Below, one piece after another: positions 6,010 through 20,131 of a DNA stretch of 64,000 nt. Made by a program: the position numbers and the translations under genes. Position 1 is the stretch's first letter; each line of letters begins with the position of its first letter. The notes under the pieces are model-generated. The model was not told where the DNA came from and made no database searches. It saw only the letters and a list, made by a program, of their open reading frames with translations. The DNA lies in the NCBI RefSeq assembly GCF_004375085.3, contig NZ_SNAQ03000010.1:1-64000 (forward strand), given 5' to 3'. This stretch comes from Lewinella sp. W8. GTDB lineage: Bacteria > Bacteroidota > Bacteroidia > Chitinophagales > Saprospiraceae.

Positions 6010-8148
6010 TTACTCGGGAGCGCCGTATTCCCGCTGGTAGGGCTCGTACTGCTTCAGGTATCGCGGTACCGAAAACCGGGGACCGTAACGTTCCTCCAAT
6101 TCTCCGCATCGGTGCACGAAATCCTCCACGCCATAGGTCTCCAGATACTGTAAAACGCCACCGGTGTAGCCGGGGAATCCCCAGCCGTAAACACTGGTAA
6201 GGTTGACGGCCGCTGGTTCCGTAACGACCTTCTCCTGAAGGCACCAGCCGGATTCAATCACCTGGCAGAAAAGGAAGCGATCCTTCATCCGTCGCCGGTC
6301 GTAGTCCGTTTTGGTGACCGGAAAGTGTTTGCCCAGGCCCGACCATAATCGCGGGGCCTTGCCGTGCGCGTATTCGTAGAAACCGGCCTGCTTGCCTTTA
6401 CCTCCCCGTTCCAGATCCTTCAACATGGTTTTCAGCGCGGGCACGGCGGGGTGCTGCTGATACTTATCTCCGTAATGGTCGGCGGCCTGCTGTTCGTAGC
6501 GCATCACCAGCTTGAGCCCCAGTTCGTCGGCCAGGGCGAGGGGGCCGGTGCGCATACCGGCCTGGCGACCGAGGTTTTCGATCAGGGCGGCGGGGTAACC
6601 CTCGTTGAGCATGGTCACTCCCTCCAGGATGTAGGTGTTCAGCACCCGGGCGGCGAAAAAACCCCAGGTATCCTTTACGATGATGGGGACCTTACGGATC
6701 GCCAGGGCAAAGTCAAAGGCGCGGGCAATGGTTTCCTCGCTCGTTTTGGCTCCACGGATAATTTCCACCACGGTGGTTTTCTCCGCGGGAGAAAAGAAGT
6801 GGATGCCCACGTAATTGGCGGGCCGAAGACTCTCCTTTGCCAGTTCCGTGATGGGAATGGAAATCGTATTCGTGGCGAATACCGAGTATTCGTCCAATTG
6901 TTCTTCCGCCTCCCGGGTGACTTTGTGTTTCACCGATTTATTCTCAAAGACGGCCTCCACCACAATGTCGCAATCCCGAAACTCTTCACTCTTGTCCGTC
7001 GTGGTAATTCGGCTCAGCAATTCCTCCCGCTCCGAAGGCTGGAAAGTTCCCCGGTCAATGTATTCGTCAATGCGTTCGACGACGTAGTCCCGGCCCCGAT
7101 CGGCAATGGGCTGGCTGACGTCCTTCAGAACGACCTCCAGTCCGTTACGGACGCACAGGAAGGCAATGCTGGACCCCATCTGCCCGGCGCCGATAACGCC
7201 CACCCGCCGCGGACGGAACCTGCCGTATCCCCGTGGCCGGCCCTTGCCCCGACGAACGGCCTGTTTGTCGAACCAGAAAGTAGAGATCATACTCTTACTC
7301 ACCGTCCCCGTAGCCACCTGGGCGTAATAGCGGCTATCGAGCCGATAGGCGGTTTCAAAGTCTACCTTCGATGCTTCGGCCAGCAAGTCCAGGATGGCCC
7401 GCTTGGCGGGGTAGAGGTCGTTGGTGTCCGCCGACAGCCGGGCGGTCAGAAGGCGAATCCGGTGGCCCAGGTTGGGGTCGGCGGCCGTGCCGCCGGGAAT
7501 CTCCTGGGAGGGGTCGTCCCACGGCCGCCGCGTGGGCGGATTGCCGAGCAGAAAGGCCTTGGCCTTCCGAATCAGTTCGTCTTCGTTGGCCGCAAGGTCA
7601 TCGATGATGCCCACTTTAAGGGCCTCCTGCGGACTGTACCGCCGGCCCTCCATCAGCAGCGGATAGGCCCGCTCGATGCCGAGCAGCCACATCAGGCGGA
7701 TCGCGGCGCCGCCACTGGGAATCAGCCCGATCTTCACTTCGGGGTGTCCGAGCCTCATTTTGGGGTCGGCCAGGGCCACGCGGTGGTGGCAGGCCAGGGT
7801 CAGCTCGAAGCCCGCGCCGATGGCGTTGCCGTTGATGGCCGCCACCACGGGGACTCCGGGCTCTTCAATGTCCCGCAGGAATTGTTTCAGTTGCTGCGAA
7901 GCCTCGAAGGCTTCTTTGGGATCCGTCAACTCCAGCAAATATCCCAGGTCACCCCCCTCTAAAAAGGTATCCTTGGCGGAGGTGATGATCACTCCCCGCA
8001 GCCGACCAGCTTCTTTCTCTGCCTTCAGGTGCTTGATCACCGGTGCAAAGGCCGCCACCAGTTCGTGGTTCAGCAAATTGTCTTCCCGCCCCGACATGTC
8101 CAGGAGCAGGGTAACGATGTTATCCGTGTCTTTGCGGTAGTAGATCAT
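6010..8148 (-). CDS. fadJ: Fatty acid oxidation multifunctional enzyme, FadJ-like (enoyl-CoA hydratase / 3-hydroxyacyl-CoA dehydrogenase)
   Basis: 712 residues. The crotonase domain (about 1-195) has both catalytic glutamates, E115 in GAGFE and E137 in HPEVKIG; their 22-residue spacing matches FadJ rather than FadB. The Rossmann motif GVIGAGQMG is near residue 318, and the dehydrogenase His-containing segment GIHFFSPAEK and C-terminal dimerisation domains follow. It would hydrate trans-2-enoyl-CoA and oxidise the resulting 3-hydroxyacyl-CoA with NAD+. It begins 4 bp after the stop of the thiolase-like gene, so the two form an operon transcribed from near 9372. All FadJ catalytic residues that I can place are present, unlike its partner. 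Confidence 0.93.
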   Translation of the reverse strand: MIYYRKDTDNIVTLLLDMSGREDNLLNHELVAAFAPVIKHLKAEKEAGRLRGVIITSAKDTFLEGGDLGYLLELTDPKEAFEASQQLKQFLRDIEEPGVPVVAAINGNAIGAGFELTLACHHRVALADPKMRLGHPEVKIGLIPSGGAAIRLMWLLGIERAYPLLMEGRRYSPQEALKVGIIDDLAANEDELIRKAKAFLLGNPPTRRPWDDPSQEIPGGTAADPNLGHRIRLLTARLSADTNDLYPAKRAILDLLAEASKVDFETAYRLDSRYYAQVATGTVSKSMISTFWFDKQAVRRGKGRPRGYGRFRPRRVGVIGAGQMGSSIAFLCVRNGLEVVLKDVSQPIADRGRDYVVERIDEYIDRGTFQPSEREELLSRITTTDKSEEFRDCDIVVEAVFENKSVKHKVTREAEEQLDEYSVFATNTISIPITELAKESLRPANYVGIHFFSPAEKTTVVEIIRGAKTSEETIARAFDFALAIRKVPIIVKDTWGFFAARVLNTYILEGVTMLNEGYPAALIENLGRQAGMRTGPLALADELGLKLVMRYEQQAADHYGDKYQQHPAVPALKTMLKDLERGGKGKQAGFYEYAHGKAPRLWSGLGKHFPVTKTDYDRRRMKDRFLFCQVIESGWCLQEKVVTEPAAVNLTSVYGWGFPGYTGGVLQYLETYGVEDFVHRCGELEERYGPRFSVPRYLKQYEPYQREYGAPE

Positions 8149-8152
8149 GGCG

Positions 8153-9367
8153 TCAGGCTAGGCGTTCGATAATGGTGGACACGGCCAGTCCGGCACCGGC
8201 GTCAATGGTCAGGCTGCCGAGCGCCAGGTCCCGCCGCTCCAATTCGTCCAGTAGGTGACAGAGCATCATGCCGCCAACGGCGCCCAGGGGTTCGCCGAGG
8301 CTGATGGCCCCACCCAGCGCATTGTACTGATCGTCCGATAGGTCGAGCTCCCGCTGGAAGCGGATGGCGGGCGCCGCAAAGGACTCATTGAATTCCCACA
8401 GGTCGATATCCTGGCGTTCCAGCCCGGCCTGGCCGAGGGCCAGTTCCGCGGCGTTAAGCCCACCCGTCAGGAGGGTCGCATCCACGGTGCTCAGGGCTAC
8501 GGCCCGGATGCGGGCGCGGGGCTTGAGCCCCAGCGCTTCTCCCGCCGCCGCGTCCCCGAGGAGGCAGAGCGCACAGCCGTCGGCGGCCGGACTCGTATTG
8601 CCCGTGGTGTGCAAATGGGTAACGTGATCCACCAGGGGAAAACGATGCAGCGCCATTTCGTTGAAGCCTGCCAGTCCCATTTCGGCAAAGCGGGGAGACC
8701 GTTCGGCCAGCGCCTCCAGGTTCAGATCGGCGTCGGGGAGGGTGTCGTGGTCCAGAATGACCAGTCCGTTGACGTCATAAATCGTTTCGAGGCTCTTACT
8801 GAAGTGGCCCGCTTCCCGGGCCGCCAGGGCTCGCCGGTGGGAGCGGAGCGCAAATTTATCGAGGTCTTCCTGACTCAGGCCGTAGGTGCTGGCCACGAGG
8901 TCGGCGGCAACCCCCTGGGGGATGTAGTGGCTGTTGATCACCGTCGCCGGATCGTTCATCATGGGGCCACTGTTCAGGTAGGTCGGTACCCGACTCATGC
9001 ACTCCAGTCCGCCGGCGATGATGGTCTTTCCGTACCCCGCCGTGATCCTGGCGGCGGCCAGGTTGATGGCCTCTAGGCCACTGGTGTTGAAGCGGTTGAG
9101 CTGCAGCCCACCCCGGGCTTGGGCCCAGCCGGCCTTCAGGAGGGCGGCCCGGGCAATATTGTAGCCCTGATCTCCCGCCGGGGTATTGACGCCCACCACA
9201 AAATCATCGATGGCGGCGGGTAGGTCGGGGCGGTCCGTCCGGCGCTGAAAGGCCTGCAGGCACTGGCTGAGCAGGTCGATGGGCTTGACTTCATACAGAT
9301 CAGCGGTACCCTGGCCACGGCCACGGGGACTGCGCAGAACATCGTAAATGAAAGCTTGGGTGGGCAT
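8153..9367 (-). CDS. Thiolase-fold protein lacking all three thiolase catalytic residues
   Basis: 404 residues from the ATG at 9365-9367; an upstream extension to 9391 would overlap the promoter. The fold is clearly that of a degradative thiolase: NRFNTSGLEAI, AGGLECMSRVP, NESFA, GGAISLGEPLGAVGG and a C-terminal glycine loop are all in order. However, the nucleophilic Cys of NR(Q/L)CSSG is Asn94, the His of GHPLG is Glu359, and the Cys of the C-terminal CxGxG loop is Asp389. I checked the codons AAC, GAA and GAC in the DNA. Normal thiolysis through an acyl-Cys intermediate is therefore not expected. It precedes fadJ by 4 bp. It may be a structural subunit or may catalyse different chemistry, as known for some thiolase-fold aldolases. 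Confidence 0.88.
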   Translation of the reverse strand: MPTQAFIYDVLRSPRGRGQGTADLYEVKPIDLLSQCLQAFQRRTDRPDLPAAIDDFVVGVNTPAGDQGYNIARAALLKAGWAQARGGLQLNRFNTSGLEAINLAAARITAGYGKTIIAGGLECMSRVPTYLNSGPMMNDPATVINSHYIPQGVAADLVASTYGLSQEDLDKFALRSHRRALAAREAGHFSKSLETIYDVNGLVILDHDTLPDADLNLEALAERSPRFAEMGLAGFNEMALHRFPLVDHVTHLHTTGNTSPAADGCALCLLGDAAAGEALGLKPRARIRAVALSTVDATLLTGGLNAAELALGQAGLERQDIDLWEFNESFAAPAIRFQRELDLSDDQYNALGGAISLGEPLGAVGGMMLCHLLDELERRDLALGSLTIDAGAGLAVSTIIERLA

Positions 9368-9379: not shown

Positions 9380-9639
9380 GTCAGGCCACACCGAGTAGCC
9401 CAGCGCGGACTACCCAATATTTTTTCTCCCCGGTATATTTGCTACCGAAATGAAAAAACTTCCTTCTCCCGTTCTACCCACAGCATCTCCACGAACGATC
9501 TAAGGGACTAACGAACCAACAGACCAAAAGACTAACCGACCAACTCCCTCCCCGTCGACATAATCCCCCAATTCGTAGATATAACTTTCTCCTTATCTTT
9601 TGGGCACCGTTATTTGGGGCCAGATAACCTCTAATAAAG

Positions 9640-11636: not shown

Positions 11637-13808
11637 ATGAAGAAATTTGGAACTTTTGGCGGTGTTTTCACGCCTACGCTACTGACCATTCTCGGGGTAA
11701 TCATGTACCTGCGCCTGGGGTGGGTAGTCGGTAATGCGGGACTACTGGGCGCCTGGCTAATCATAATTTTGGCGTTTGCCATCACTTTGTGCACGGCTTT
11801 GTCCATGTCGTCCATTACGACGAATACCCGGATCGGGGCGGGCGGTGCTTACGCCATCATTTCCCAGGCCCTTGGCCTGGAGGTGGGGGGCAGCCTGGGG
11901 ATTCCGAGATACATTTCTCAGGGCCTCGCCGTAACCATGTACATTTTCGGCTTTCGGGAGGGGTGGCTTTCTATTTTTCCGCAGCATCACGCCTTTTTGG
12001 TGGACCTCCTGGTCTTCATTTTACTGTACGCGATTGCCTACAAGAGTGCGGATCTGGCGATCAAGACCCAGTACATCATTATGGGGATCATCGGCCTGTC
12101 GTTAGTCTCCATCGCCTTAGCGGCGGGTTTTGGGTCCATGCAGTATACCACGGCGGAGGCGGCAAGGTTCGGGACTTACGCCGGGGTTGCAGCGGAAGGT
12201 TCCGAAAAATTCTGGTTGGTTTTTGCCGTGTTCTTTCCCGCGGCAACGGGTATCATGGCGGGGGCAAACATGTCGGGCGAATTGATTGATCCCCGGAAGT
12301 CGATTCCGGTAGGCACCCTGTGGGCGATTGGCGTTAGCTTCCTGATTTACATGGTCCTGGCCTACTGGGTGGCGCGTTCTGCTTCCGAGGCGGAATTAAT
12401 CGGTAACTACAACATTATGATCGAGCGCTCCTTTTTCCCGCCCCTGGTCATCGCGGGGGTGTTGGGCGCTACCTTTTCCTCGGCGCTGGCGTCCATCATT
12501 GGCTCTTCCCGAATTCTGTACGCCATGGGCCAACACCGGGTATTACCGAAGGGGGAGTGGCTGGAGTATCAGAACGAAGCGGGGCAGCCGCGGAATGCGA
12601 TGATTGTGACCGGGGTACTGATTTTTGCCACCATGTTGCTGCGTGACCTTAATGCCGTGGCTCCCCTGGTGACCATGTTTTTCCTGATCACCTACGCAAT
12701 GCTCAACATCGTGGTGATCATCGAGCAAAAACTCGGCCTAATCAGTTTCCGGCCTCAGTTCAAGGTGCATCCCCTGATTCCCATTGTCGGATTAGTGGGT
12801 TCGTTACTGACGATGTTCATCATCAATCCTATGATCAGTTTGGTATCCTGGGCCCTGATGATCTTCGTATACGGAGTGCTGAGCCGCCGCAAACTGGAGG
12901 TAAAAATTGAGGACGTCCGTAGTGGCCTGTTTACTTCTTTCGCGGAGTGGGCGGCCAAGCATACTTCCGGAAATGCTTTCCCGCAGGAACGATCCTGGAA
13001 GCCAAACCTGTTGGTGCCCGCCACCGACGGGGCCTCCGTCCAGGGGGCTTTCTCCATCATCAAAGATCTCGCGTATCCCAAGGGTGGAGCCGTCTTGATG
13101 GGCATCGGACCGGGAAGGGGGAAACGGAAAGACCTGGACGAAAAACTCCGGCACTTGTCGCAGGCTTTCCGCAAGGATAATGTCCACTCTTCGGTTGCGA
13201 TGATGCAGACTACGTCCTACGCGACCGGGGTAAACCTGGGCAATCAGGCGTTGATGGCGTCTTACTTTCGTCCGAACATCGTTTTCCTCAATCTGCTGGA
13301 GCCTCCGGAAGTAGTGGCTGATTACTCCGCCATCATTACGGAGGCCGAGCGTTTAGAGCTCGGGGTTATTCTGTACGCCCCCCATCCGCGGGCCATGCTG
13401 GGGCAGCAGCAGGCGATCAACGTCTGGATGCGACCCCAGGGGCCACAGTGGAAGGTCGCCCACGCTCACCAAACGCAGGACCTGGCCTTACTGCTCGCCT
13501 ACAAACTAAAGCGGAACTGGAATGATGCGCACATCCGGATGATGACCGTCATTGAGGACGAAGAAGATCGGCCAAAGGCCCAGGCATTCCTCCACGAAGT
13601 GATTGAGTTGGCCCGCCTGCCGATTGACGAGACCCTGGTCGCCGTGGGGGACTTCAAGACCCACCTGGAAGAAGCGCCCCTCGCGGACATTAATTTACTC
13701 GGCATCACCCCGGGGCGCGACATCGATGCTTACCGGGAGATCGCGGTCATGGTCGATACCACCTGTTTGTTTGTCCTGGATTCTGGGCACGAGAATATTT
13801 ATGCTTAG
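11637..13808 (+). CDS. SLC12-type cation-chloride cotransporter / APC superfamily permease
   Basis: 723 residues. The N-terminus MKKFGTFGGVFTPTLLTILG is typical of the SLC12 (Na-K-Cl cotransporter) branch of the APC superfamily. About 12 membrane spans occupy residues 10-430. A soluble C-terminal domain of ~290 residues follows, as in eukaryotic SLC12 proteins, with LLVPATDGASVQGAF and a segment (ARLPIDETLVAVGDF) near the end. The likely role is coupled movement of cations and chloride, or of an amino acid, across the inner membrane; the substrate cannot be read from the sequence. Monocistronic. Confidence 0.85.
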   Translation: MKKFGTFGGVFTPTLLTILGVIMYLRLGWVVGNAGLLGAWLIIILAFAITLCTALSMSSITTNTRIGAGGAYAIISQALGLEVGGSLGIPRYISQGLAVTMYIFGFREGWLSIFPQHHAFLVDLLVFILLYAIAYKSADLAIKTQYIIMGIIGLSLVSIALAAGFGSMQYTTAEAARFGTYAGVAAEGSEKFWLVFAVFFPAATGIMAGANMSGELIDPRKSIPVGTLWAIGVSFLIYMVLAYWVARSASEAELIGNYNIMIERSFFPPLVIAGVLGATFSSALASIIGSSRILYAMGQHRVLPKGEWLEYQNEAGQPRNAMIVTGVLIFATMLLRDLNAVAPLVTMFFLITYAMLNIVVIIEQKLGLISFRPQFKVHPLIPIVGLVGSLLTMFIINPMISLVSWALMIFVYGVLSRRKLEVKIEDVRSGLFTSFAEWAAKHTSGNAFPQERSWKPNLLVPATDGASVQGAFSIIKDLAYPKGGAVLMGIGPGRGKRKDLDEKLRHLSQAFRKDNVHSSVAMMQTTSYATGVNLGNQALMASYFRPNIVFLNLLEPPEVVADYSAIITEAERLELGVILYAPHPRAMLGQQQAINVWMRPQGPQWKVAHAHQTQDLALLLAYKLKRNWNDAHIRMMTVIEDEEDRPKAQAFLHEVIELARLPIDETLVAVGDFKTHLEEAPLADINLLGITPGRDIDAYREIAVMVDTTCLFVLDSGHENIYA

Positions 13809-13878: not shown

Positions 13879-13966
13879 AAAAGCAAAAGCCCGTTCAACT
13901 TTCGTCGAACGGGCCTTTAGTGGAGAATGCCGGAGTCGAACCGGCGACCTCTTGCATGCCATGCAA
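13879..13966. repeat. Left 88-bp attachment repeat of the tRNA-Ala island
   Basis: Identical over 88 bp to 20015-20102. It contains the tRNA terminator hairpin (GCCCGTTC ... GAACGGGC, 13889-13914) and the 3' half of tRNA-Ala from the discriminator base through the anticodon stem. The identity stops at 13966/20102, where this copy continues into island sequence. The tRNA copy here lacks its 5' half and cannot be functional. Confidence 0.9.
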
Positions 13967-14044
13967 TAAAGGACTTGATAAATAATTGATAGTCAGTAAG
14001 TTAATCACAAGGATGTCTTTGCCATTTTAAGAATCTTTGCCACT

Positions 14045-15283
14045 ATGATTAACGTTTATCTGAGGTTAGACACCTCCACGAAGCTCAAAAAAAGTGGGAA
14101 TCACCCCGTCGTTTTGATGGTCACCTGGGGAAACAACGTAAGACGCAAGAGACTTAAGGGCTTCTCTTGCAAGAAACAATCCTGGGACTTTGACCGCAAC
14201 CGTTTCCTTCATTCTGAGCGCAAAAATGACCTGCTCGATGCCTACGAGAAGAAGGCTCGGAGGATTGCGGACTACATGGACGAATGGGACTACAACCACT
14301 TCGTCAAGGAGCTGAACCGCTCTGAGGAAAAGAAGGAGCAGAAGTACAAAAGGCTTCTTGCTTACTTGAAGGAACTGGAAGAGTATTACTTCGAGAACGA
14401 CCAAGTAGCCTACGCCAACGACTTCAAGGGGCTTTCATCCTTTCTCAACAAATGCTTCACCAAGGACATGCGGCTACAAGACTTTGGGGATCGTGAGCTG
14501 AAGATCATTCTCAAGGAAATGGATAAAAGAGGTATCAAAGGTTGGAACTATCTCAAAACGCTCAAAACGGCCCTTTGTGAAGCGATGCAGAAAGGCTACC
14601 TGAAGCCTGAGGAATGCCCGATCAAAACACAGTATTCACCAATTGGGTATAACATCAACAAGCGTCAAGCTAAGACATCGGGTAGGTCAAACAAGAACAG
14701 GATTAAGGACATGACTGAGGAGGAAAAGGAAATGGTGGTAGACTTCTACTACAAGGCCGACATCCCTCCCGTGGAAAAGAAGCATTTGGCATACTGGGTG
14801 TTAGGGTACAAACTCTTTGGGGTCAACTTCATCGACTTAGCGCACCTTAAATGGTCTGACATCAATAATCAATATTGGAAGTACAAAAGATCAAAAACAG
14901 GGGTTGGTAGTGCTAGTGGAAAGCCTGTACCCGAAGAGGCTATGAAGATTCTTAAAGAGTATGATTCGGGCGGGAAGTATATTCTGGATGTACTGAACGG
15001 CTACGAAGACAGTGCAGAAAGTAAGCATGTTAGGCTTCGTAATTATTCCTCAAATCTGAGAAGGTCTTTGAGAAGGGTGTCTAAGCGGATCAACTTCACG
15101 GATGATAGGTACATCACTTGGTACACGACAAGGTATACTTCGATCACACTGACTATTGAAAAGGGAGTCGATCTTAATGTGGTCTAGACTTTGGCTGATC
15201 ACTCCTCGATCAAGACTACTTCTAAGTATGTCGGGCTTGTGAGGGACAGGAATAAGTTGAAGGATGCTATGGATTTGTTGTAG
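14045..15283 (+). pseudogene. Tyrosine recombinase (island integrase) interrupted by an amber codon
   Basis: The reading frame from ATG 14045 has the phage-integrase layout: an N-terminal Arm/beta domain, a SAM-like core-binding domain (about 120-200) and the catalytic domain with the second conserved Arg in WYTTRYTS. A TAG at 15185-15187 stops translation after VDLNVV, at residue 380. Reading through gives TLADHSSIKTTSKYVGLV and a stop at 15281-15283. That segment carries the conserved H-S-S and the catalytic Tyr of the SKYV motif. The truncated product lacks the nucleophile and should be inactive. Everything else looks intact, so the loss is probably recent. Lower confidence attaches only to whether the stop is a real mutation or a base-call error. 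Confidence 0.88.
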
Positions 15284-15508
15284 AATAAGCTTTTACCTTA
15301 TTCCATCATAAAACAGACCTCATTTGAAGAGTCATCATTATTCATATCAAGAGATAGCTGCGGGTAGAAAATAAACTAGGTAGAAATTTTAATTATCAAA
15401 TGTACAAACTGTTTTATGTATACCCTTCTTTTTAAAGTCGCAATATTTTATGAACAAAAGGAAAATGTGTAGATTTGACTACTAACCTGATACAACAAAA
15501 ATACTTTT
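15284..15508. other. AT-rich spacer, likely promoter region of the pentapeptide gene
   Basis: No open frame or RNA gene is recognised. The sequence is very AT-rich and directly precedes the plus-strand gene at 15509. No convincing TAnnTTTG element could be fixed. Confidence 0.4.
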
Positions 15509-17074
15509 ATGATTAATCAAATAATTATTTGGTTCAATGCAATAAGTAAAAACATAAACAAGGATTTTATCAAAGGAATATCTATTGGATTAATCCTTAT
15601 GATGTTCTACACCGTATACGATGCATTTGAGACTGCTGAGTTTATAGTAAAGCCAATGATTTTTACTGGAGTAGGATTAGTAACTGCTATTGTTATGGCA
15701 AGCATCTATATCGATAAGAATAAGGAAATATTTAAGAAATATGTAGAGGATAACGTTGATGATTTCATTGAAGATGAGCAGAGAGTAATTATAGAAGTTG
15801 TTGAGGCAACAATGAGTCCTCAAAGGGCCAAAAAGGTACCTAAAGCACTGAAAAAAAGTAAATCGCTAAAGGCAATAGCTAAATTATCGCCGATAGTAGC
15901 TGGGCTAATAGCTCGCTTCTTCGCATTAAGTACACTGCTAAGCGTACTTGGGGCAACTGTAAGCTTAGCATTATTTCTAGCCACCTACATGCAAGTAAAG
16001 CACTTAGAAATACAAAACGATCTAATTTCAGCACAAAATAAAAAGATTGACGTACAGAACAATCTTGCCGAGGCTACACGAAGGGCTGCTTTGATATATG
16101 AACTGACCGCAGTTTTAGATGAGATTGATGAAGAGCTAGATATACTTGAAAAAAAAAGAATTAAAGAGAAGATAAATATTAAATCACTAAAATTGGATAC
16201 AGTAGATTATGAATATGAAGAATATTTAGAAAAGCTTGGACTTGTTAAGAACACTTTTTGGGGCTATTTTAACACTGAGAGATATGAAAATGAAATTTCT
16301 TCTAGATTAGTTGGTCGAATTATTGCTCTTTCAAAAGTCCTTAGACCATATAGACAACTTAGCAATGATACTACCCTAAGCACGTATCTTTCCCCTGAAA
16401 GAGGGCAGCTACTAGTTTCTTTAGTCGAGTCTAGTTTGAATTTCAATTCACTAACGAATGGTGATTTTTCCTTTATGGCTTTAGCTAATTTAGAAATTGG
16501 CTCTCCGGATTTTGTGTCAGAAGATTATATGCGAAGTAAAATTAAAGATTTAAGATATCTTAAAGCTCAAAATTGTAATCTTAGCAATGTCATTTTTTAC
16601 AAAACATCATTCAGCAACAGTGATTTTAGTGAAGGCTCACTTGTGGATGTAGAATTCAATGAAAATGACTTAAGCAGCGTCGACTTTTCTAGTACAAACA
16701 TTGTAAACTCAAAGATGACACATAGCTATATATATCAGCTGTACCTAAACGATGCATACCTTGACGGTTTAATAATCGAAAACAGTTTTCTATATGGATA
16801 CGGCGCGCCTTTATTAGTAGATAGTACTTCTAATCCAATAATTTTCAAAAATAGTTTTGTTGACTCTTTGGCTTTAGATGGGCTAAGAAAATTTTTCGAT
16901 ATAGGCGAATTGGAAATTACACTAGTGAAAGAAGAAGAATCAAATAGAATCATTACAGATGAGGAAGAAGAGTACTTAAATACACTTACAAGCTATGACC
17001 ATATGAGAGAAGAAATGAAAGTAGGCATGTTTAAGGTAAATGGGAAAGTAAAGGTAAATAAATCTCTATACTAA
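15509..17074 (+). CDS. Membrane protein with coiled coil and pentapeptide-like repeats
   Basis: 521 residues, AT-rich codon use. Hydrophobic segments lie at about residues 23-44, 47-69 and 126-165. A charged coiled-coil stretch (about 165-225, with ALIYELTAVLDEIDEELDIL) follows. Residues 349-430 show pentapeptide-like spacing, for example CNLSNVIFYKTSFSNSDFS, which predicts a right-handed quadrilateral helix. Pentapeptide domains act as scaffolds or DNA mimics; membrane-anchored versions are mostly uncharacterised. It lies between the island integrase and the IS remnant, so it is island cargo. No catalytic motif was found. Confidence 0.7.
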   Translation: MINQIIIWFNAISKNINKDFIKGISIGLILMMFYTVYDAFETAEFIVKPMIFTGVGLVTAIVMASIYIDKNKEIFKKYVEDNVDDFIEDEQRVIIEVVEATMSPQRAKKVPKALKKSKSLKAIAKLSPIVAGLIARFFALSTLLSVLGATVSLALFLATYMQVKHLEIQNDLISAQNKKIDVQNNLAEATRRAALIYELTAVLDEIDEELDILEKKRIKEKINIKSLKLDTVDYEYEEYLEKLGLVKNTFWGYFNTERYENEISSRLVGRIIALSKVLRPYRQLSNDTTLSTYLSPERGQLLVSLVESSLNFNSLTNGDFSFMALANLEIGSPDFVSEDYMRSKIKDLRYLKAQNCNLSNVIFYKTSFSNSDFSEGSLVDVEFNENDLSSVDFSSTNIVNSKMTHSYIYQLYLNDAYLDGLIIENSFLYGYGAPLLVDSTSNPIIFKNSFVDSLALDGLRKFFDIGELEITLVKEEESNRIITDEEEEYLNTLTSYDHMREEMKVGMFKVNGKVKVNKSLY

Positions 17075-17136
17075 CCAATGCACCATACAAAATACTCAAT
17101 AGTGATATGGTGATTTTAAGTAAATATGTAGTGGCA

Positions 17137-17416
17137 GAGACCGTTGCAAAAAGTGTGTCACGAAGTAAACCCATAACTTTCCTAAACACACTGAGTCATG
17201 AAGTATAACAATGAATTTAATATGGAAAGCTTCCGTAAGGAAGCGATTGCCAAATTATAGGCTGGAGAAGGCTTGTTGGTGAAGGGCGGAGCCTTCACGC
17301 CTCTTCTCAACGCTTTTTTGGAGCAAGCCCTGGAGGGTGAAGAAGAAGATCATATTGCAGAGGATACACTGTTGCCTGGTGACGACTTATTAAGGCTAGC
17401 TCTAATTGGTAATTAA
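17137..17416 (+). mobile_element. IS256-family insertion sequence remnant
   Basis: An inverted-repeat-like end at 17137-17159 (GAGACCGTT ... AGTGTGTC) matches the IS end at 104-126. It is followed by the first ~70 codons of a transposase and then breaks off. No right end is recognisable before the convergent gene at 17402. Confidence 0.6.
17198..17416 (+). pseudogene. Truncated IS256-family transposase
   Basis: ATG at 17198 starts MKYNNEFNMESFRKEAIAKL, followed by an in-frame TAG, then AGEGLLVKGGAFTPLLNAFL and EQALEGEEEDHIAED. This corresponds to the conserved IS256 N-terminus with its (K/G)-L-x-G-K-x-G-x-x-x-P-L-(I/L)-K block and ALEGE-x-x-x-H motif. The frame then diverges and ends at 17416. 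The catalytic DDE domain is absent, so the gene is dead. It overlaps the 3' end of the gene at 17402 by a few bases. Confidence 0.75.
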
Positions 17417-17965
17417 AACGCCTATAAGCAGTCCAATTCCTACGCCACCAATTCCTACGCCTATTTTTTCTAGGGTAGTTGCTCTTTTCAAGCTTTCAGT
17501 TAGATTGATAGACTGGTCTAATAAGTTGTTAGCATTCTCTAGCGTTTTGTTATTCTGAGTTAAAGACTGAATAGTGAGCTCTAGTGAATTGTTTGCTGAA
17601 TTAAAAATTTCATCATTAAGATTGTCCGATTTTGAAAGTATTTCAACTAGTTGCTCAGATACTCTTTGATTATTTAAGATGATTTGTCTGAATTCTTGAA
17701 TGAGCTTTAATTCAAAGACTCTGTCATTCGACATTGACTTCTCTAAAGTTTCATATGTTCTGAACAGTAACGGACTAAGAATGAATATTGAATCGGTTTC
17801 ATTGATAAGTAAATCACCATCAAATTTTGTTGAGTTTAAAGCACCTGGAGCAGAAAACGATTGAGGGACAATTAGAGTATCTGAATGAATTTTATCCTGT
17901 GAAAAGACTGTTCCACATGGAAATAGAAAAAGAGAAAAAATTGTTAGGATGGTTGGGTTAATCAT
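17402..17965 (-). CDS. Exported coiled-coil protein with C-terminal membrane span
   Basis: 187 residues. A signal peptide (MINPTILTIFSLFLFPCG, cleavage near VFSQ) leads into a polar region. Residues 85-165 are heptad-rich (NNSLELTIQSLTQNNKTLEN). A Gly/Ile/Val-rich span closes the protein (about 167-187, GVGIGGVGIGLLIGVLITN). The frame overlaps the end of the upstream gene (17958-18350) by 8 bp, so the two are translationally linked. No family is recognised. The arrangement of two overlapping small envelope proteins behind a muralytic enzyme is reminiscent of spanin pairs in phage lysis cassettes; this is inference only. Confidence 0.6.
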   Translation of the reverse strand: MINPTILTIFSLFLFPCGTVFSQDKIHSDTLIVPQSFSAPGALNSTKFDGDLLINETDSIFILSPLLFRTYETLEKSMSNDRVFELKLIQEFRQIILNNQRVSEQLVEILSKSDNLNDEIFNSANNSLELTIQSLTQNNKTLENANNLLDQSINLTESLKRATTLEKIGVGIGGVGIGLLIGVLITN

Positions 17966-18350
17966 TTTTGATCGGATTTTCTTTGTTTTTCTGAGATAGA
18001 AGGTCTAGTGTTTTTTCTATTTCGTTTTCAAATTCAATCGCTCTTTCTTCTAAGGTAGTTAGCTTTTCAAGCGCGTTCTCGTTACCTCTTTTAATCGTCA
18101 ACAAGCCTGAGTCCCTTGCTTCTCGAAGCTTTTTTATATCTTCTTCGTAAGCTCTAATCTCTGACTGTAATGCACTTAAGCTTTTTATGGCCTCTGTGTT
18201 TATACGTTGAGCCTCTTTAATTTGTGTTTTTGTCTCGTCTAGAGATTGAATTATAGTCGAGAAGTCGCCCCTTGATATGAACATAAAATACAGTGTTCCA
18301 AGTCCAACAATTAGGAGTAATATTAGCAGAATATCACTTAAACTCTTCAT
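17958..18350 (-). CDS. Single-span membrane protein with long coiled coil (spanin- or holin-like in outline)
   Basis: 130 residues from the ATG at 18348-18350 (MKSLSDILLILLLIVGLG); a longer form starting at 18383 adds 11 residues and is less likely. One membrane span (about 6-27) is followed by an almost unbroken heptad pattern through residue 125 (SALQSEIRAYEEDIKKLREA). N-terminal anchor plus periplasmic coiled coil is the architecture of inner-membrane spanins (Rz). It lies downstream of the GH46-like gene and overlaps the next small gene by 8 bp. Confidence 0.6.
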   Translation of the reverse strand: MKSLSDILLILLLIVGLGTLYFMFISRGDFSTIIQSLDETKTQIKEAQRINTEAIKSLSALQSEIRAYEEDIKKLREARDSGLLTIKRGNENALEKLTTLEERAIEFENEIEKTLDLLSQKNKENPIKND

Positions 18351-18435
18351 TCTAATGAAATTGTAATTAAACAGGCGTAGCATATTTTCATCCTGGCTAC
18401 AAATATTAAGGCTATTATTTAACCCTCTAATTGTG

Positions 18436-19119
18436 TTAAGATATAGCTACTCCATTTGTGTTTATTTCGGCGGAAAGACCCCAATTGTTTGATTCTATCT
18501 GAGTCAAGAGGCATTGAGTTCTGTATATAGTTTTTCTTAGAATTGGTCGGTTGTGTTTGGCAAGCCAGTTATGCCTTGTTTCAACATATTGCTTTATCCA
18601 GACCTTTTCCCTCCCTCCATTAACAGGAGGATATTCAGAAAACCTCTTTCTTAAAAAATTAAATATTCCTCCAGAATGAATGAAACTATCATAAACCACT
18701 AGTAGGCTAAGATTTTCTTTAAACCCATGACCTTCAAACCAAATTTTTGCTGGTTGGTAATAGTAACGATCAAAAAACTCGTCTTGAGCAGTTCGCATAA
18801 CGGGATCATTGTTAGCTGCTTCTTTCAACAAAGACCGAAATCTTTGATCATGCCTAAGTGAAGGAATTTTGCCAATTTTGGCTAGGTATTCAGCAAATGC
18901 AGAAGCATAAATCCCGTTTTTTGAAATATACATTTCAATGAGTCTTCCTAAATTCCCAAACTCAGTTGTTTGACTTCTTCCATAAGTTATTTGATAAATT
19001 GCTTTTCCATCTATACGAGGGCCATCTTTGTATACGGCTATAGCATCGTATTTTCCAACTTTGGTGCCTGTTTCGAACACATTAACTATCTCCTGAATCT
19101 TCTTTTTATTGATGGGCAT
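18436..19119 (-). CDS. GH46 chitosanase-like / lysozyme-fold hydrolase without signal peptide
   Basis: 227 residues. The order of conserved blocks follows GH46: an N-terminal helix with FETG (position of the general acid Glu), the beta region YGRSQTTEFGNLGRLIEMY, then the helix AQDEFFDRYYYQPAKIWFEG, YDSFIHSGG and YVETRHNWLA. GH46 enzymes cleave beta-1,4 bonds in chitosan and share the lysozyme fold; relatives on mobile DNA could act on peptidoglycan. There is no export signal, so the enzyme would need a holin-type route or lysis to reach the wall, as phage endolysins do. It is the first gene of a three-gene minus-strand set on the island. Confidence 0.75.
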   Translation of the reverse strand: MPINKKKIQEIVNVFETGTKVGKYDAIAVYKDGPRIDGKAIYQITYGRSQTTEFGNLGRLIEMYISKNGIYASAFAEYLAKIGKIPSLRHDQRFRSLLKEAANNDPVMRTAQDEFFDRYYYQPAKIWFEGHGFKENLSLLVVYDSFIHSGGIFNFLRKRFSEYPPVNGGREKVWIKQYVETRHNWLAKHNRPILRKTIYRTQCLLTQIESNNWGLSAEINTNGVAIS

Positions 19120-19496
19120 ATCATAAGTGTTTTAGTTAAGTTAACTAATAACTAGTAAGTCAACTCTAACCAAGGTGTTACTTCAAATATACAAACTTTT
19201 AAATCTATTTAGGCGGTTTGTGACTAATCAACGCTATAATGCGTAATATTTAAAGGCGTTCTTTTGGGGAAATGTGCTTAAAACGGGCTAAGCTTTGTTC
19301 AAAGATGCCGGAATATTTATCTTAACCAGAACCGAAGCGACCTACCTACCTGATACTTTAACTAAGCCTATAAGATTGTACTCGAACGAGCCTCCCAACG
19401 CTATAATGAAGCCCCCTTTATAATGGTGCTCCTGCTGCTTTAAAAGCTTAGGCGAAGCAATCTAAAACTAGTACAGCTAATCAGCAAACACGACAA
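19120..19496. other. AT-rich island spacer, no intact gene
   Basis: The AACGCTATAATG string occurs twice (about 19229 and 19399), suggesting remnants of duplicated DNA. Otherwise no open frame with family resemblance and no RNA gene is seen. It includes the probable promoter region of the GH46-like gene. Confidence 0.4.

Positions 19497-20014: not shown

Positions 20015-20131
<117 letters not shown>

Follow-up and report, generated by a model that had tools for sequence, protein, structure and literature searches.

The minus strand of the window, by which we mean the whole 64,000-nucleotide stretch analyzed here, carries a fadA-like gene followed by a fadJ/fadB-like gene (Table 1). The fadA-like frame has no internal stops and translates to 404 residues. 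Its start is placed at the ATG at 9367, and a GTG at 9391 represents a mechanical extension of the open reading frame. Among 17 relatives from the Neolewinella group, the equivalent position is ATG in eight and TTG in nine. The ATG of the alpha chain begins 4 bases past the fadA stop in the window; 9 of the 17 relatives show a 4-base overlap of the two genes, and the other eight have a gap of 14 to 291 bases.

Table 1. Coordinates of the gene pair and of the fadA sites discussed in the text
Feature	Position	Strand	Remark
fadA-like gene, predicted thiolase-fold beta subunit (404 aa) of an MtTFE-type beta-oxidation complex	8153..9367	-	thiolase catalytic residues replaced
fadJ/fadB-like alpha subunit (712 aa), predicted enoyl-CoA hydratase and 3-hydroxyacyl-CoA dehydrogenase	6010..8148	-	downstream of fadA
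Codon 94, AAC (Asn), replacing the nucleophilic Cys	9086..9088	-	HMMER alignment and codon
Codon 327, Asn of NEAF (here NESF), oxyanion-hole residue kept	8387..8389	-	alignments
Codon 359, GAA (Glu), replacing the His of GHP	8291..8293	-	HMMER alignment and codon
Codon 389, GAC (Asp), replacing the second catalytic Cys	8201..8203	-	HMMER alignment and codon
Remodelled covering loop TYLN[SG]GPM, residues 129-138	8954..8983	-	canonical relatives mostly MGSDGG
CoA adenine loop, residues 205-225	8693..8755	-	degenerate in the N/E/D clade

Both thiolase domains are detected in window FadA (Pfam PF00108, 106 bits; PF02803, 90 bits). The top-scoring family is the acetyl-CoA C-acetyltransferase NF006090/PRK08242, at 439.3 bits and below its curated cut-off of 514. 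TIGR01930 names the protein an acetyl-CoA C-acyltransferase (271.1 bits, above the curated cut-off of 240.55) despite the missing catalytic residues, which is a warning for annotation. HMMER identifies the beta subunit of the M. tuberculosis trifunctional beta-oxidation complex (MtTFE) as the closest solved protein (354 bits). The AlphaFold model of FadA has an intact fold (pLDDT 94.8), and Foldseek aligns it with MtTFE beta at TM-scores of 0.94-0.97, with 44% identity over the full length. The best solved match of the alpha chain is MtTFE alpha (4b3h_A, 553 bits), the first matches beyond MtTFE, named 'fatty acid oxidation complex subunit alpha', reaching 322 bits; the window pair therefore resembles MtTFE. 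With MtTFE beta as its closest solved relative and a coupled TFE alpha gene at its side, FadA is, as far as sequence comparison can tell, a thiolase of the MtTFE-beta (FadA, Rv0859) type.

A FadJ-like gene adjoins the altered fadA in all 17 relatives and in all 21 genomes of the genus. Alpha-chain residues E115, E137, H450, E462, and N504 occupy the positions that we take to be catalytic from FadB motifs, and the catalytic residues are kept in the window and in 17/17 relatives. The original prediction had described the thiolase gene as coupled to an intact fadJ, and this is borne out in the window and in these relatives. Within the fadJ coding sequence, ARAGORN reports an antisense tRNA-Thr (cgt) at 7456-7545 on the plus strand, probably a false positive.

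Catalytic residues and their distribution

HMMER alignment places Asn94 of FadA at Cys92 of MtTFE beta, Glu359 at the His of GHP, and Asp389 at the second Cys. The substitution of Asn, Glu, and Asp for Cys, His, and Cys, first read from the letters of the window, is thus borne out by translation and alignment, and the codons AAC, GAA, and GAC are confirmed. In thiolases, the acyl group is taken up by the first Cys, the oxyanion hole consists of the His and an Asn, and the base is the second Cys (PMC3406046). The residues now at 94, 359, and 389 would be unable to do these jobs in the known way. The catalytic residues are not lost entirely: three are replaced, but the fourth, oxyanion-hole Asn327, is still present in a motif that now reads NESF. 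M. tuberculosis FadA (Rv0859; PDB 4b3h, 7o4r) is alike in fold and in pairing with an alpha chain, but has Cys92, the GHP His, and the second Cys where window FadA has its Asn, Glu, and Asp; the covering and adenine loops are altered as well. The claim that every structural thiolase motif was kept accordingly fails, as TYLN[SG]G has taken the place of MGSDGG in the covering loop, and the loop that binds the CoA adenine has degenerated. Covering-loop residues T129, Y130, L131, and N132 are fixed in 19/19 aligned rows that share the three replacements (N/E/D). In the adenine loop, whose fingerprint we took from PMC11301753, constraint is gone at E209, R212, P213, and L223.

Alignment with thiolases allowed the sharing of N/E/D to be counted. 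A contig search of the family genomes finds it in all 17 Neolewinella-group relatives among the matches listed. It is also present in 21/21 genomes of the genus, the window's own included, each with one fadA copy (search at E 1e-70) and no internal stops in the gene. The two sets overlap, three pairs sharing the same protein. Codons vary synonymously among the 17 relatives (AAC 14/AAT 3, GAA 9/GAG 8, and GAC 14/GAT 3). Because both sets agree throughout, sequencing error is excluded, and with it a lone artefact in the window.

The nearest relatives outside the genus group, among the matches listed, are 55-57% identical and have Cys-His-Cys. N/E/D was not found beyond the group: the 28 class-level relatives fetched (L180-L207) are all Cys-His-Cys, as are 4/4 at phylum level. 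In the class search, 50 of 395 genomes matched, two of them from the genus, and 28 of the other 48 were fetched; the class and phylum searches used strict E limits (1e-95, 1e-112), so altered, and hence weaker, relatives could be missed. The family search matched 119 of 248 genomes, and about 30 of the listed matches (36-44% identical, mostly from a second paralogue group) were left out.

The alignment comprises 135 distinct rows, of which 98 are C/N/H/C (positions 94/327/359/389), 19 are N/N/E/D, and 18 read otherwise. The 98 include the window genome's other thiolases (L002, L003). L153 counts among the 18 solely through truncation, and L154, which lacks position 94, was dropped by the length filter before rows were counted. 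The FadA tree was built from 133 rows (without L003 and L153) with the catalytic columns excluded. All trees are of the 'quick' kind with SH-aLRT support alone, and the first warns of meeting long branches (L086 with L156/L157). All 19 distinct N/E/D rows group together in a single clade (SH-aLRT 100). Its FadA stem measures 1.09 substitutions per site vs 0.31 in the canonical sister, a grouping with support of only 83; without the long and most divergent rows the values are 1.08 and 0.27. The partner tree shows no such burst (N/E/D stem 0.27, sister 0.30). These trees indicate a single origin of N/E/D, on a FadA stem that is long, while the partner stem is ordinary. Mean identity of N/E/D to canonical sequences is 53% for FadA, 58% for the partner, and 74% for a separate thiolase; across canonical genera the values are 64%, 60%, and 80%. 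Canonical relatives have 53 columns that are at least 99% constant, and six of these are changed in the clade (22, 94, 132, 351, 359, and 389). All three catalytic columns are among them, for which the hypergeometric chance is 0.0009.

Constraint on the altered pocket

Within the N/E/D clade, fadA has a median dN/dS of 0.118 (148 pairs) and fadJ one of 0.091 (144 pairs). The canonical value is about 0.04 for both genes, from few usable pairs (19 and 7), and all of these figures are rough since dS is high. Both genes thus appear to be constrained in the clade, though more weakly than in canonical relatives. It is barely conceivable that fadA is a decaying pseudogene or a sequencing artefact. 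Several altered relatives from other lineages come from single draft assemblies, and L049 (C/H/P) and L051 (S/H/C) could be errors; in the genus, however, the same triplet recurs in 21/21 genomes without internal stops, its codons vary synonymously among the 17 relatives, and dN/dS is near 0.12, results that refute decay or artefact here. The original prediction had suggested selection for a different role. Clade-wide N/E/D, purifying selection on fadA (dN/dS 0.118), and the intact partner support this, and of the roles it offered, a scaffold for the alpha chain fits best.

Within the clade, 41 of 49 columns in the four catalytic loops are invariant vs 157 of 355 elsewhere (Fisher p 2e-7). When the comparison is confined to columns that canonical relatives already conserve, this excess is no longer significant (30/35 vs 75/106, p 0.12), and part of the constancy of these loops is, on this comparison, ancestral constraint. 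At 51 positions where canonical rows agree to at least 60%, the clade is fixed (at least 18/19) on another residue, including V61N, A95T, 129-132, A329S, N351L, and T364V. The idea that such changes are concentrated in the active site is weakened by their distribution, 13/45 in the four loops vs 38/219 elsewhere (p 0.096). Constraint has been lost among canonically conserved columns of the CoA loops (6/19 vs 8/143 elsewhere, p 0.002), the limits of these loops having been chosen after the alignment was seen, with guidance from PMC11301753.

A pocket that was remodelled and then so strongly conserved makes new acid/base chemistry conceivable. N94, E359, and D389 together with the covering loop would form a new site whose substrate is what the dehydrogenase releases, or some related CoA ester, and whose reaction is hydrolysis, decarboxylation, or retro-aldol cleavage. 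The 51 fixed positions and the 41/49 invariant loop columns speak for such neofunctionalization, and there is precedent in the aldolases Sal and Ltp2, whose thiolase-fold sites were repurposed (PMC12329534). We nevertheless regard it as possible but unlikely: the fixed changes are not significantly enriched in the catalytic loops, the CoA loops have lost constraint, the aldolase Tyr motif is absent at the NEAF position, its presumed site, and sister lineages have lost their residues in unlike ways. Moreover, apart from the pair itself, no gene cluster recurs in more than 9 of 18 loci (counting ORFs of at least 90 aa in flanks of up to about 5 kb). The aldolase- or hydrolase-type chemistry on CoA esters that the original prediction offered as another role finds no support here, as the NEAF position reads NESF rather than the aldolase YDCY/YDHF, and the sister losses differ. 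This motif, which has no Tyr anywhere in the clade, is taken as the probable counterpart of the aldolase one from PMC3406046. The more specific proposal that the thiolase subunit was rebuilt once, around Asn94/Glu359/Asp389, Asn327, and the TYLN loop, so that in this genus the complex would follow hydration and oxidation of CoA esters with a third step other than thiolysis, seems rather improbable.

Residues 226-235, R[FY]xEMGLxGF, are near-invariant in the clade and correspond to the KAT225 loop of MtTFE, which adopts a different conformation with CoA and, together with alpha helix H9A, forms the lining of a groove (PMC11301753). FadA could on these grounds be a non-catalytic subunit that binds the acyl-CoA tail or an intermediate and gates or regulates the alpha chain. 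The adjoining adenine loop has degenerated, however, and a regulatory role of this kind is distinctly doubtful.

Cysteines are newly fixed at C370 (19/19) and C265 (18/19), where canonical rows mostly have Gly and Ala. We considered whether either might have taken over as nucleophile, FadA remaining a thiolase. The model puts C370 and C265 in a helix and a strand, away from all four catalytic loops, and a moved nucleophile is rejected on this basis; Thr95 is shared with some canonical relatives (L033 and L035 read CTSG), and the His and the second Cys are gone too. Retained thiolase activity of this type is very improbable.

Losses in sister lineages and separate thiolases

Seventeen further rows (17/135 aligned) carry other replacements or a deletion at the catalytic positions, among them D/H/G, R/F/(D or T), C/Y/S, C/H/A, C/Q/C, and a deleted loop. 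Parsimony yields 12 changes of state on the full tree, eight of them forced by starred branches, and eight changes without the long rows, seven of them forced; both counts include N/E/D. According to these reconstructions, other lineages of the family altered the catalytic residues of FadA independently and in different ways, which is new here. An alpha gene lies beside or near eight altered rows (L059, L073, L086, L109, L131, L155, L049, and L051, the last across a 1.3 kb gap). Its catalytic residues were read in five of them and are intact in four. L109 has Arg for the dehydrogenase His, so that this partner may also be decaying. L086 has the longest end branch of the altered relatives with a partner, and its model is predicted to fold (pLDDT 91.3); position 389 is D by tblastn and T in the multiple alignment. 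No FadJ-like partner is present in the fetched stretches of L084-085, L087-089, L130, and L156-157, which are therefore evidence for loss only and not for a retained complex. L125 sits at a contig end and is uninformative on the partner. Three genomes with altered FadA (G001, G018, and G023) have an ordinary partner and an intact separate thiolase; identities of FadA and partner to canonical rows are 44% and 64% in G023, 55% and 66% in G001, and 62% and 67% in G018.

We note that the pairs L084 (3416-4636)/L085 (G216, G057) and L156/L157 (G093, G180) read C/V/Y/S or have the nucleophile loop deleted, and sit on long branches. L087 (2515-3732), L088, and L089 represent a divergent FadA-like paralogue with C/A/H/S, which in L087 has a carotenoid-oxygenase-like ORF nearby, along with a further thiolase/ketosynthase-like ORF (both identified by eye).

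The window's genome encodes a canonical thiolase of 390 aa adjoining a HAD-ECH fusion gene (the ECH half read by eye), and also holds an AtoB-like thiolase (named by eye). The separate 390-aa-type enzyme, with C/N/H/C, is present in 5/5 N/E/D genomes checked. Pfam matches of strengths corresponding to both thiolases occur in 21/21 genus genomes, one of them partial. The separate thiolase is also found in 7/7 canonical genomes checked. The backup thus predates the loss and is permissive rather than specific, which weakens the idea that a backup thiolase explains the loss. Four genomes with altered FadA (G022, G136, G180, and G200) give no match to the separate thiolase at 1e-100, and two others (G160, G222) give only partial matches.

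A thiolase dimer probably retained for assembly

Probably, in our judgment from sequence data, thiolysis has moved elsewhere and FadA is kept as a dimeric core for assembly of the alpha chains. The pair would descend from a trifunctional beta-oxidation complex like that of M. tuberculosis, with window FadA as its beta subunit. Since neither the Cys that accepts the acyl group nor the His of the oxyanion hole nor the second Cys remains, thiolysis by the known mechanism would be lost, and the new Asn, Glu, and Asp would occupy the pocket left empty. TFE tetramers are built around the beta2 dimer (PMC11301753). If, as in known TFEs, the thiolase dimer is the core on which two hydratase/dehydrogenase chains assemble, this would account for the retention of FadA, and the pair would now be a bifunctional hydratase/dehydrogenase complex. 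Its 3-ketoacyl-CoA product would be cleaved by a separate canonical thiolase, most likely, from gene content, the 390-aa one. The recurrent and unlike losses in sister lineages favour dispensable thiolysis over a single designed new site. Against a scaffold stand the unusual constancy of the catalytic loops and their newly fixed residues, as a pure scaffold need not keep N/E/D everywhere.

Inactive thiolase-fold proteins are already known (TLP1 and SLP, and Sal/Ltp2 as aldolases), but in other branches. Thiolase-fold subunits without the Cys that are kept in complexes or given new chemistry also include the KS chain-length factor, PqsB, and KSQ, which are heterodimer partners or decarboxylases of the ketosynthase branch and not of beta-oxidation. 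TLP1 of M. smegmatis is like FadA in having a thiolase fold with catalytic residues not conserved, and is without thiolase activity; it differs in being monomeric, with an extra C-terminal domain and 15% identity to the Zoogloea thiolase, and is not termed a TFE subunit in the available part of PMC3406046. The steroid aldolases Sal and Ltp2 and T. brucei SLP likewise combine the fold with absence of the usual Cys nucleophile, but they are relatives of SCP2-type thiolases with a YDxF/Y motif; in Sal and Ltp2 the catalytic Tyr lies in YDCY/YDHF, and both pair with DUF35 domains (PMC12329534). Neither the YDxF/Y motif nor a DUF35 partner was seen with window FadA. MtTFE beta-C92A (PDB 7o1g, going by its title) is a TFE that has a crystal structure even without the beta nucleophile; it is a laboratory single beta mutant (with two alpha mutations), whereas window FadA is a natural triple replacement. 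In the literature searched (titles and abstract openings, subscription journals lying largely outside the scope), no TFE beta subunit naturally without its catalytic residues is described.

TFEs are a standard case in which substrates are proposed to be channelled from one active site to the next, three in all. A clade-wide loss of the third site with the other two intact, and with parallels in other lineages, would offer a natural test of whether assembly requires the thiolase dimer independently of catalysis. The same natural variant would test whether channelling to the thiolase matters.

Elsewhere in the window, 11637-13808 on the plus strand encodes a prokaryotic cation-chloride cotransporter (AA_permease and CCC C-terminal domains). 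The stretch 13900-19300 has 36.9% G+C between parts of 56-57% and may be a mobile insertion. It holds a recombinase-like ORF at 14045-15187 (by eye; Pfam gives only a sub-threshold match to another family), a pentapeptide-repeat protein, and a GH46-like ORF, with a tRNA-Ala nearby at 20056.
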